This document shows positions 33,114 through 36,248 of a stretch of DNA of 36,248 bases, piece after piece. A program made the position numbers and the translations under genes. The number at the start of each line of letters is the position of its first letter. Positions within the stretch are counted from its first letter, which is position 1. Source of the DNA: an uncultured SAR86 cluster bacterium. GTDB taxonomy: Bacteria; Pseudomonadota; Gammaproteobacteria; Magnimaribacterales; D2472. The notes under the pieces were generated by a model. That model had not been told where the DNA came from. It worked only from the letters and a program-made list of their open reading frames with translations, and made no database searches. The stretch lies in the NCBI GenBank assembly GCA_902541175.1, contig CACBPP010000009.1, positions 1 through 36,248 of the forward strand. Direction: 5' to 3'.

Positions 33114-34001
33114 TTATCCTCTTGGATGATGTTTTTTAAGAACATCACTTAACCTTTGTTTTGCTATATGAGTATATATTTGAGTAGTTGATAAGTCACT
33201 ATGACCTAAAAGAAGTTGAACAGATCTAAGGTCAGCTCCTCTATTTAGAAGGTGTGTTGCAAAGGCATGTCTTAGGGTATGTGGAGATATGGAATTTTTT
33301 AAATTCTCCCTTATCAGATAAATCTTCACCCTTTGCCAAAATGCAACTCTAGTCATTTTTTTTCCTCTATTTGAAAGAAAAATTTCCTTTGATGAAGATT
33401 GTTCTCTGTCATTTAAATAAGATTTTAAAGAATCTAGAGCTGTCTCCCCAAAAGGAACTAATCTCTCTTTAGATCCTTTCCCAAAAACTTTTACTACACA
33501 TCTTTTCATATCAACATCAGTTATCTTTAGATTTACTAACTCAGATATTCTCATACCTGTAGCGTATAACATTTCAATCATTGCCTTATCCCTATTTTCA
33601 ATTTTATTTGAGACATCAGGACTGTTAAGTAATTTATCAACTTCAGCTTCAGACATAGACTCTGGTAAATATTTCTCTTGCTTTGGTGTAACTAAGTCGT
33701 TTAGTGGAGAGTTTTTTAAAAAATTTCTTTTAACTAAAAATATATAAAAAGATTTGATTGATGATATTTTTCTATTAACTGAGGAACTTCTCATTTTCCT
33801 TTGAAATAAGAACAATATATATTTATTAATATGATCCTCTTGAAGATTTTTATATTTAAGATCTTCATTATCCAGCCATTGAAAAAAAGATGAGATGTCG
33901 GCTTCGTAAGCTTTTACTGTATTATTAGAAAGTCCCTTATCTACTAAAAGATAATTCAAAAAAGATCTAAGATTAGAATCTTCCTTGTTAGATGTTTGCA
34001 T
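33114..34001 (-). CDS. xerD: Tyrosine recombinase XerD
   Basis: Site-specific recombinase that resolves chromosome dimers at dif with XerC. It has 295 residues: the N-terminal SAM-like DNA-binding domain (about 10-95) and a catalytic domain with Arg151 (TGMRISEL), Lys175, His241-x2-Arg244 (HTLRHAFATH), His267 (LLGHSD) and nucleophile Tyr276 (IYTHI). The neighbours dsbC and hom support XerD over XerC. No dif site was seen nearby. Confidence 0.93.
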   Translation of the reverse strand: MQTSNKEDSNLRSFLNYLLVDKGLSNNTVKAYEADISSFFQWLDNEDLKYKNLQEDHINKYILFLFQRKMRSSSVNRKISSIKSFYIFLVKRNFLKNSPLNDLVTPKQEKYLPESMSEAEVDKLLNSPDVSNKIENRDKAMIEMLYATGMRISELVNLKITDVDMKRCVVKVFGKGSKERLVPFGETALDSLKSYLNDREQSSSKEIFLSNRGKKMTRVAFWQRVKIYLIRENLKNSISPHTLRHAFATHLLNRGADLRSVQLLLGHSDLSTTQIYTHIAKQRLSDVLKKHHPRG

Positions 34002-34005
34002 TTTA

Positions 34006-34935
34006 TTATTCTAGACGTTCTTTGATTCTTGCAGATTTACCGGATCTTTCTCTAAGATAAAATAACTTAGCCTGACGAACATCACCTTTTCTTTTTACTT
34101 TGATAGAATCTATCATTGGGCTATGAGTTTGGAATGTTCTCTCTACACCGATTCCACTTGAAATCTTTCTCACTATAAAAGACGAGTTTAGTCCAGCTTT
34201 TTTTACACCCATCACGACCCCTTCAAAAGCTTGTAATCTTGTTCTTTCTCCTTCCCTAACTTTCACAGATACAACAACAGTATCTCCTGGTCTAAATTCG
34301 GGAAGATCAGTTTTCATTTGTTTTGATTCAAATTCATTGATTATTTGAGAAGGAGTTTTCTCCTCTAAAGAAACTGAAAGCGCCTCTTCAGCAGCTGCTT
34401 CTTCTCCTTCGGGAGATTCTTCTTCTACAGGAACTTCTTCTTCTACAGGAGCTGCTTCTTCTTCAGGAGCTGCTTCTTCTTCAGCAGGAGCTTCTTCTTC
34501 AGCAAGAGCTTCTTCTTCTTCAGCAGGAGCTTCTTCTTCTAAAGGAGCTGCATCTTCAGCAGGTGCCTCTTCTTCAGTAGTAGCTACTTCTTCGACTGGA
34601 ATATCTTCGTCAATAGATTCTTTTTGACTAGCAGCGGATTCAGCCATTGCTGTTGCTGCATCATCAACTGCGCTTGGTGATGGTGATTCGTTAAAATGAA
34701 TATCCCAAGCATCTAGTAATTTTGCTTTTGTTAGATTGATATCTAGTTCAAGTCCATTTTCTTTTGCTACCGCAACTATGTCAGCTTTTTTCATTTTGTT
34801 AAGAGCTGATTTTGTAGGAAATTCTCTAGTATCTTCTATCCTAGTTTCTTCTTTTTTTGGTTCTTCAGGCGCAGATGAACCACCAAATAATCGGGAAAAA
34901 AAACCTTTTTTCTTGTTTTCTTTACTATCGCTCAT
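34006..34935 (-). CDS. rplS: 50S ribosomal protein L19 with a long FtsY-like N-terminal extension
   Basis: The last 116 residues (about 194-309) are a normal L19: [40 protein letters not shown] and [20 protein letters not shown]19 is usually about 115 residues. Here 190 residues precede it in one open frame. Residues 1-20 have basic-aromatic [12 protein letters not shown], very like the membrane-binding helix at the FtsY N-terminus; 39-78 form a SAP/Rho-N-like helical unit ([19 protein letters not shown]); and 110-192 are an Ala/Pro/Glu repeat. No ATG, GTG or TTG stands at the normal L19 start, so the extension is probably translated. It could be removed by proteolysis later. It lies 19 nt after trmD, as in other Proteobacteria. 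Confidence 0.93.
34366..34578 (-). repeat. rplS: Acidic Ala/Pro/Glu-coding repeat inside rplS
   Basis: A degenerate repeat built of units such as EEEAPAEEE, read from GAA/GAA/GAA-GCT/CCT codons, covers about residues 120-190. On the + strand it shows as recurring CTTCTTCTTCAGCAGGAG blocks. It can expand or contract by slippage without breaking the frame. Confidence 0.8.
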
Positions 34936-34946
34936 AATATTCGCCT

Positions 34947-34967
34947 AAAAAGGGCTATAGGATAGCC
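34947..34967 (-). terminator. Possible attenuator/terminator between trmD and rplS
   Basis: On the - strand GGCTAT-CCT-ATAGCC forms a 6-bp stem that includes the trmD TAG, followed by CTTTTT, 12 nt before the rplS start codon. The stem is short, so strength is uncertain; it could reduce read-through into rplS or separate the two expression levels. Confidence 0.4.
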
Positions 34968-35686
34968 TTAGATGACCATTCTTCCAAGAGTTTTTTTTGT
35001 TTTTTTGTTAATTTTATTTTTTCAAGTAAATCAGGTCTTTTTTTAAATGTTTTAAGTAATGATATCTCAGATTTCCATGCCTTAATCTTTTCGTGGTTTC
35101 CGGATAATAATATTTCAGGAACCTTGTTAGAATCAAAAATTTCAGGTTTTGCATAAACATCTTCTTTAAGTAATCCATTAGAAAAAGTATCTTTCAGATA
35201 TGAATCCTTATTTCCAAGAGTTCCAGGTAAATGTCTCGAAATTGCATCAATTAAACATATTGCTGCGTACTCTCCACCACTCAAAATAAAATCTCCTATT
35301 GATACTTCCTCATCTACATAGTTATCAATTACTCGTTGATCAATTCCTTCATATCTTCCGCAGATTACTGTCATATTTTTGAGTTTAGATAATGAAATTA
35401 CTTTTTTTTGAGTTAGTAATTGTCCCTGTGGTGACATATAAATAATTGGTCCAAGTTTTCTTTTATGAATACTTTTAATAGTCTTAATCAATGGTTCTGC
35501 CATAATAACCATACCTTCCCCACCCCCATATGGCTTTGAATCAACATTTTTATGCTTATTAGTAGTGTTTTTTCTTATATCAAAAGCTTTGATTGACAAT
35601 ATGTCTTTTTTCATAGCTTTAGAAATTACACCAGAATTTAAAATTTCAAATATTTCTGGAAAAATTGTTAAAACATTTATATTCAT
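34955..35686 (-). CDS. trmD: tRNA (guanine37-N1)-methyltransferase TrmD
   Basis: SPOUT (trefoil-knot) methyltransferase that makes m1G37 and prevents frameshifting. Starting at the ATG at 35686 gives 243 residues beginning MNINVLTIFPEIFE, the normal N-terminus; the frame open to 35737 lies in rimM. Landmarks are KPYGGGEGMVIM, SPQGQLLTQ, CGRYEGIDQRVI and the knot GDFILSGGEYAAICLIDAISR with the catalytic Asp. It follows rimM by 1 nt. Confidence 0.95.
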   Translation of the reverse strand: MNINVLTIFPEIFEILNSGVISKAMKKDILSIKAFDIRKNTTNKHKNVDSKPYGGGEGMVIMAEPLIKTIKSIHKRKLGPIIYMSPQGQLLTQKKVISLSKLKNMTVICGRYEGIDQRVIDNYVDEEVSIGDFILSGGEYAAICLIDAISRHLPGTLGNKDSYLKDTFSNGLLKEDVYAKPEIFDSNKVPEILLSGNHEKIKAWKSEISLLKTFKKRPDLLEKIKLTKKQKKLLEEWSSKAIL

Positions 35687-35687
35687 T

Positions 35688-36209
35688 CTAGTAATCGCTT
35701 TGCCAATAAACTTTAAGAACCCTCTCTTTCTTATCAACAGAGTCTATAAATTTTTCTTTTATAAATGGTATAAGTCTTTCTTTTTCATCAACGGAATCAG
35801 GTGTTGGCTTAACTATTAAACAATCATTAGCACCAAAGTTATTAAGTTCTTTCACTTCTCCTAAAATTTCATTTTTGTTGAGTCCAATTACGATCATTCC
35901 TTTTAAATCATGCCAATATACCTCTTCAGATTTAAGCTCAGGAAGATTTTCAGAAGAAATATAAAGCTTTATGTTGGTGTATTCTTTAATTTCATCAACA
36001 CTATCTATGTTTTTTAGTTTAGCTAAAAATTTTGAATTAATTTTTTTAATGTATTCGATTGATAATTTATTTTCATTATCTATAAAAATATCATCTATAT
36101 AGTTGAGAATATTTTCCTTTGGAGAGCAGAATGAGTTTAGGAAAAATTCTCCCTTAAGACCTCTAGGTTTTCCTATGTTGGCAACACAAACTGATTTATT
36201 TTTTTTCAT
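35688..36209 (-). CDS. rimM: 16S rRNA processing protein RimM
   Basis: Assembly factor for the 30S head that binds S19. The start at 36209 gives 173 residues with MKKNKSVCVANIGKPRGLKGEF, the usual beginning; an ATG at 36224 is possible but lies deeper in rpsP. The C-terminal PRC-barrel part (about 95-170) includes WHDLKGMIVIGLNKNEILGE and ends VLKVYW. The start overlaps the rpsP 3' end by 14 nt. Confidence 0.92.
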   Translation of the reverse strand: MKKNKSVCVANIGKPRGLKGEFFLNSFCSPKENILNYIDDIFIDNENKLSIEYIKKINSKFLAKLKNIDSVDEIKEYTNIKLYISSENLPELKSEEVYWHDLKGMIVIGLNKNEILGEVKELNNFGANDCLIVKPTPDSVDEKERLIPFIKEKFIDSVDKKERVLKVYWQSDY

Positions 36210-36248
36210 CTTCTGAAGAATCATCTTCAGCTGGAGCTTCGTCTTCTG
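36196..36248 (-). CDS. rpsP: 30S ribosomal protein S16, C-terminal tail only (partial)
   Basis: Only the last 16 codons are in the window, reading EDEAPAEDDSSEDEKK and TAA at 36196-36198. The S16 identity is inferred from its place upstream of rimM-trmD-rplS, the universal order in Proteobacteria; no S16 core is visible. An acidic Ala/Pro/Glu/Asp tail is not part of ordinary short S16 and resembles the L19 extension. Confidence 0.6.
   Translation of the reverse strand, partial: EDEAPAEDDSSEDEKK

Follow-up and report, generated by a model that had tools for sequence, protein, structure and literature searches.

The ribosomal protein bL19 of one SAR86 family carries an N-terminal arm of about 195 residues whose tip resembles membrane-targeting peptides, in a group of bacteria that, judged by its genomes, seems to live without the signal recognition particle (SRP). 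We observed this arm in a 36,248-nucleotide stretch of a SAR86 genome (the window). We tentatively read it as a flexible tether with which ribosomes of an SRP-less lineage are fastened to the membrane, at somewhat less than an even chance.

The gene, rplS, is one open frame of 309 codons in which the arm precedes the L19 core (Table 1), as the preliminary description had claimed, and the span that it gave for the arm was correct. A same-frame stop lies four codons further upstream of the start ATG. The core was matched by PF01245 (E about 1e-47 to 9e-47, Pfam) and TIGR01024 (1e-45, NCBIfam), and it is the only bL19 match in its own genome. For the 309-residue protein as a whole, Pfam returned L19 alone, and NCBIfam returned L19 plus one match far below its cut-off. 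The full core and, where relatives were read, the gene order rpsP-rimM-trmD-rplS are as in ordinary bL19; the arm is what sets the protein apart. From its N-terminus, the arm runs from a short polar start through a basic/aromatic peptide, a three-helix unit and a Glu/Ala/Pro stretch into the core.

The absence of an alternative start had been described slightly wrongly, as an in-frame ATG (Met207) sits near the usual L19 start; by comparison with E. coli L19, we take it that initiation there would cut off the beginning of the N-terminal L19 helix. A core-only L19 with a separate gene for the arm upstream was not found in family f1, to which the genome belongs, and in the window trmD ends 19 bases before rplS. 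Upstream of trmD lies a gene that we call rimM-like from gene order; the window stops short of rpsP and of the usual ffh site. Downstream of rplS are xerD and a gene whose top NCBIfam match, DsbC, is below the cut-off.

Table 1. Positions of the features discussed (window coordinates, except for the uS2 genes, which are given by locus).
Feature	Positions	Strand	Basis or remark
rplS (bL19), 309 aa with N-terminal arm	34006..34935	(-)	one open frame and L19 models
Start ATG of rplS	34933..34935	(-)	
Arm, residues 1-196	34360..34935	(-)	
Membrane-targeting-like basic/aromatic peptide [12 protein letters not shown], residues 8-19	34879..34914	(-)	sequence likeness
SAP/Rho-N-like three-helix unit, residues 42-82	34690..34812	(-)	AF2, Ku70 SAP match, fold matches
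Glu/Ala/Pro linker, residues 104-190	34366..34626	(-)	AF2 pLDDT below 50; strains differ in its length
Degenerate DNA tandem repeat	34385..34593		periods 18 and 39, in the acidic part
L19 core, residues 197-307	34015..34347	(-)	PF01245, TIGR01024
Internal in-frame ATG (Met207)	34315..34317	(-)	kept in 15/30 arm-bearing frames; not conserved
trmD, directly upstream of rplS	34955..35686	(-)	NF000648, E 4e-86
rimM-like gene, upstream of trmD	35688..36224	(-)	open frame; named by gene order
xerD, directly downstream of rplS	33114..34001	(-)	TIGR02225 above cut-off
uS2 with SAP end	L203:1098-2126		PF02037, E 1.3e-4, under gathering score
uS2 with SAP end	L215:363-1391		PF02037, E 4.8e-4, under gathering score

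How far does the arm extend among the relatives? We searched for L19, blind to the arm, in the own genome and 60 relatives from SAR86 families f1-f4 and found it in 53 of the 60. The related rplS genes of the same family do carry the extension: all 20 intact frames in f1 have it (own genome and 29 f1 relatives with L19; nine further frames are interrupted by a contig end and one is unread). In families f2, f3 and f4, the L19 open frame has an ordinary length of 116-138 residues (23 genomes). Similarly, an arm profile matched 42 of 203 genomes from the order at E <= 1.4e-21, and every one of these belongs to f1 (profile matches, with frames read in part). Weaker matches came from two f4 genomes at about 1e-5 and from six genomes at 0.009-0.06, the latter treated as chance.

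When loci fetched with the whole protein or the arm as query are included, 31 distinct intact frames were read, one of which (L047) lacks the peptide and the SAP-like unit. The other 30 comprise 24 and a further six fetched because of their arm-profile matches, so that some were located via the arm itself. Could the arm be an artefact, with a separate gene fused to rplS by a frameshift, a misassembly or a wrong start? In its favor, assemblies often end in the repeat of the acidic part, but the identical architecture of 30 distinct frames, with the start ATG at one place in all of them, led us to reject this explanation, to which we give practically no weight.

Among the L19 frames read outside SAR86 family f1, no comparable arm was found. 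A 312-codon frame in G176 appears to be a GC-rich open frame in which an ordinary L19 start lies further inside, and the additional length of a long L19 in G104 is C-terminal. On our reading, seven more long L19 frames, from SRP-bearing genomes, were likewise of open-frame or C-terminal length.

The tip peptide is present with small changes in 30 of the 31 intact distinct frames. Pooled over the 30 sequences, pN/pS was 0.16 for the peptide (11 codons), 0.29 for the SAP-like unit (37 codons) and 0.10 for the core (95 codons), values that are rough, as pS is almost saturated and the sequences come from relatives. Judged by its codons, the tip peptide is maintained as protein sequence by purifying selection. 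The repeat in the acidic part differs in length among near relatives, and several SAR86 contigs or assemblies end inside it; therefore, the absence of the arm from a draft genome means little.

Another idea is that L19 has merely gained a low-complexity add-on of little or no importance to the ribosome (solubility, assembly buffering), grown as part of a general spread of Glu/Ala/Pro tails on ribosomal proteins of the operon. Tandem-repeat DNA of variable length would suit such an origin, and in the loci read from f1, f2 and f4, bS16 of the same operon ends in a tail rich in E/A/P. Furthermore, L047 (AG-325-C22) retains the acidic part only. The add-on accounts for the linker, but leaves unexplained why the tip and SAP blocks are conserved and under purifying selection, and we regard it as unlikely. 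In a tree of TrmD and the L19 core (24 of 25 loci, f2 locus L085 left out, only the neighborhood of L047 used), L047 is a neighbor of genus g1 and is surrounded by lineages that have the arm. Consequently, L047 is likely a secondary loss of the peptide and SAP unit, with a weak outgroup placement, as the f3 and f4 outgroups were nested in f1 at low support.

A pro-segment, removed before or after assembly to leave an ordinary mature L19, is very improbable. Eukaryotic ribosomal proteins are described as being made as cleaved ubiquitin fusions, which would offer a precedent, but none of our observations favors cleavage directly. No cleavage site or protease is known for the SAR86 protein, and the conservation of the core extends to the junction block VSLxEKxPSQII.

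We compared the tip with known membrane-targeting peptides. The MinD-derived tag KGFLKRLFGG, which is reported to anchor a fusion protein at the membrane of E. coli (PMC5471200), is identical to [10 protein letters not shown] of the arm at 8 of 10 positions. The pattern G-[FLVIWM]-[FLIW]-x-[RK]-[LIVM] stands ahead of the GTPase P-loop in 22 of 27 FtsY proteins (30 FtsY loci from the gammaproteobacterial class, 27 readable), and a stricter pattern does so in 19. Among 534 background ORFs, a partly redundant set, the signature occurred in the first 150 residues of eight and the stricter pattern in one; in the first 30 residues, neither occurred (0/534 each). The likeness of the tip to membrane-targeting peptides is, at the level of sequence, more than chance, and the FtsY-like basic-aromatic start that had been claimed for the arm holds up.

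Common descent with the FtsY A domain gained no support from the searches. In a comparison of the arm profile with PDB sequences, FtsY chains reached E = 1.2, behind a Ku70 SAP chain (0.0017) and a BamC chain with GFFSRLFGG (0.011), and a single one of the 27 FtsY proteins, L092, reached 8e-5 (561-sequence set). FtsY and the arm have in common a basic/aromatic G-F-F-x-R-L peptide and an acidic low-complexity region, but the arm protein has no NG GTPase domain (TIGR00064 not matched). In FtsY, the signature lies directly before the N domain and after any acidic region, whereas in the L19 arm it is N-terminal, with the acidic region behind it and, unlike in FtsY, the SAP unit in between. Similarly, the membrane-targeting sequence of MinD is C-terminal, whereas the apparent counterpart in the arm is N-terminal and on a ribosomal protein.

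As the BamC chain has the same peptide, membrane binding cannot be deduced from the motif alone. At 0.37, the tip has an ordinary hydrophobic moment: it is equalled or exceeded by 26% of the 11-mers of the window, and 25 of 31 window ORFs attain it within their first 30 residues. The AF2 model of the arm has no helix at the tip. Membrane-targeting peptides of the MinD type often fold only once they are on membranes.

The three-helix unit behind the tip was modeled confidently, with an AF2 pLDDT of 89-91 in ten-residue blocks over residues 41-80. In fold comparisons, the top matches included Rho, T4 endonuclease VII and SAP chains, none of them strong (Foldseek E 0.56 at best; Z up to 5.9, with 5.5 and 5.2 for Rho). 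The unit has its three helices in common with SAP and Rho N-terminal domains, but Pfam matched no family at E <= 1 on the arm of the window, and SAP (PF02037) was matched by none of 22 arm members. From the model, the fold class is likely SAP/Rho-N, so that the helical unit noted in the preliminary description was borne out as a likeness, by the Ku70 SAP and Rho/SAP matches.

This unit gives rise to the main rival of the tether, which we consider possible but less than likely: the arm might be a nucleic-acid holder, in which a SAP/Rho-N-like unit on an acidic leash captures mRNA or nucleoid DNA. With a similarly limited chance, such an arm might serve mRNA recruitment, coupling to transcription or subunit assembly, with the basic tip assisting. 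No other part of the arm is modeled as well folded as the SAP unit (pLDDT about 90), and both SAP domains and the Rho RNA-binding domain are among the closest matches of this unit. Furthermore, SAP units appear on ribosomal proteins twice in the order, in the L19 arm of f1 and in uS2 of f4, which together point to nucleic-acid holding. On the other hand, the tip is under tighter constraint than the SAP unit, the fold matches are as weak as given above, and we know of no nucleic-acid role for the G-F-F-x-R-L signature.

In two genomes of family f4, the end of uS2 is formed by an acidic linker with a SAP domain. As for bS16, a long C-terminal tail was observed at loci L083 and L085-L090 and also at L134 and L137; in G062 and G200, it is made of other repeats. 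No such tail is present at the f3 locus or in G065, and control bS16 proteins are at most 106 residues long (16 readable of 20 SRP-bearing controls).

The preliminary description had raised a loss of the A domain from FtsY of the same genome; the outcome was stronger, as neither FtsY nor Ffh nor 4.5S RNA was found at the cut-off. For FtsY (TIGR00064), there was no match in the own genome and none above the cut-off in the 60 relatives, and the same was true of Ffh (TIGR00959). The 4.5S RNA (RF00169) was found neither in the own genome nor at the cut-off in any of the 60, in a search with stricter filters that may lose weak matches. In 14 control genomes, the FtsY and Ffh models matched 14 each (above the cut-off in 14 and 10), and 4.5S RNA matched in 11 (above the cut-off in nine). 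FtsY was above the cut-off in 130 of 143 genomes of a class-wide sample.

Divergent, hidden copies were considered. Below the cut-off, at E <= 0.001, the models matched in 30 of the 60 relatives for FtsY (partial matches) and in three for Ffh. Six of the weak-match loci were read, the remaining ones being unread, and all six look like other genes, which we take to be RecG, PriA (two), a guanylate kinase, an ABC ATPase and a CobW-like GTPase. It is also unlikely that FtsY is missing through poor assembly, as five single-contig genomes (G034, G037, G039, G041 and G044, 93-97% complete) are without FtsY, Ffh and 4.5S RNA at the cut-off too. At its usual site beside rpsP, ffh is absent in all eight SAR86 loci read, from four families. 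All eight lead from what we would call a corC-like gene, joined in the five f1 loci by a presumably ypjD-like one, to rpsP with nothing in between. Of 20 loci from SRP-bearing genomes, 12 showed an ffh-like frame in a pattern search of the 5 kb before rplS.

On this genomic evidence, the SAR86 cell seems to be without SRP, and the loss appears to span the four sampled families. To our knowledge, SRP is treated as near-universal among bacteria. We found no report of SRP loss or of an L19 extension in SAR86 among open-licence PMC papers. A cultured SAR86 isolate has been reported (PMC11582366), and the main text of that paper makes no mention of SRP, ffh or signal recognition.

YidC, which was present in 26 of 26 genomes tested, could have compensated for SRP by a long basic tail that holds ribosomes, as in Oxa1. 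No such tail was found in the six f1 genomes read, and this explanation was rejected for them. Six genomes from other gammaproteobacterial families (G062, G065, G097, G104, G176 and G200; 94-99% complete) also had no Ffh or FtsY above the cut-off, with one weak FtsY match in G200. At two of their loci, L135 (G065) and L137 (G200), there are corC-like genes near rpsP and no ffh, and on reading all six have an ordinary L19 N-terminus. In a YidC tree (25 of 26 rows, G038 left out, two rows short, long branches), SAR86 forms one clade (98/98) and these six lie outside it without resolved positions, so that the number of SRP losses cannot be counted.

Could the arm hold ribosomes at the membrane in such a cell? 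The tip peptide might partition into the inner membrane, or bind near SecYEG or YidC, as the MinD and FtsY peptides do. The long, acidic, disordered linker would provide reach and keep the tip off the rRNA, and the SAP/Rho-N-like unit might make a second contact, perhaps to mRNA. The outcome would be a pool of ribosomes at the membrane and less need for SRP-type delivery of the ribosomes that make membrane proteins. Membrane binding, an effect on targeting and any compensation for the loss of SRP are what we infer here. A mechanism of ribosome placement is plausible because the in vitro insertion of one small E. coli protein is reported to be largely SRP-independent if its mRNA is at the membrane beforehand (PMC10066597). 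The constraint on the peptide, close to that on the core, favors the tether as well.

Other observations stand against the tether: L047 does without the peptide and SAP unit, the moment is ordinary, the modeled tip has no helix, and the six genomes outside SAR86 without Ffh or FtsY have an ordinary L19 N-terminus. Furthermore, SRP loss is common to all four SAR86 families sampled and the arm is confined to one, so that the other three manage without it, which disfavors a simple replacement of SRP. At most, the arm would have been added later, as a refinement of a cell that already lacked SRP. bL19 is located away from the exit tunnel; as a consequence, such a tether would keep the ribosome in place and do little to orient it. 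Mitoribosome membrane receptors (Mba1/mL45 and others) embody the same idea of membrane-fixed ribosomes where SRP is mostly missing (PMC8321541), although the same paper reports mitochondria that retain Ffh and FtsY. They are unrelated proteins near the exit tunnel, whereas in SAR86 f1 a core ribosomal protein itself bears the element.

A dedicated replacement is also not strictly needed, because E. coli (laboratory suppressors; PMC8299109) and Streptococcus mutans (laboratory mutants; PMC8546722) are reported to survive the loss of SRP. Life without SRP is alike in these strains and in SAR86, but they are laboratory mutants, as opposed to an apparently natural, order-wide loss. The fullest form of the tether reading, that SAR86 gave up SRP and that in one family bL19 with an FtsY/MinD-like element does part of the receptor's job, with ribosomes resident at the inner membrane, is one that we hold to be doubtful. 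The L19 arm nevertheless offers one directly testable idea on how membrane proteins may be inserted without SRP. If SRP is truly absent, this abundant, free-living marine order would be a natural experiment on SRP-free membrane-protein insertion.
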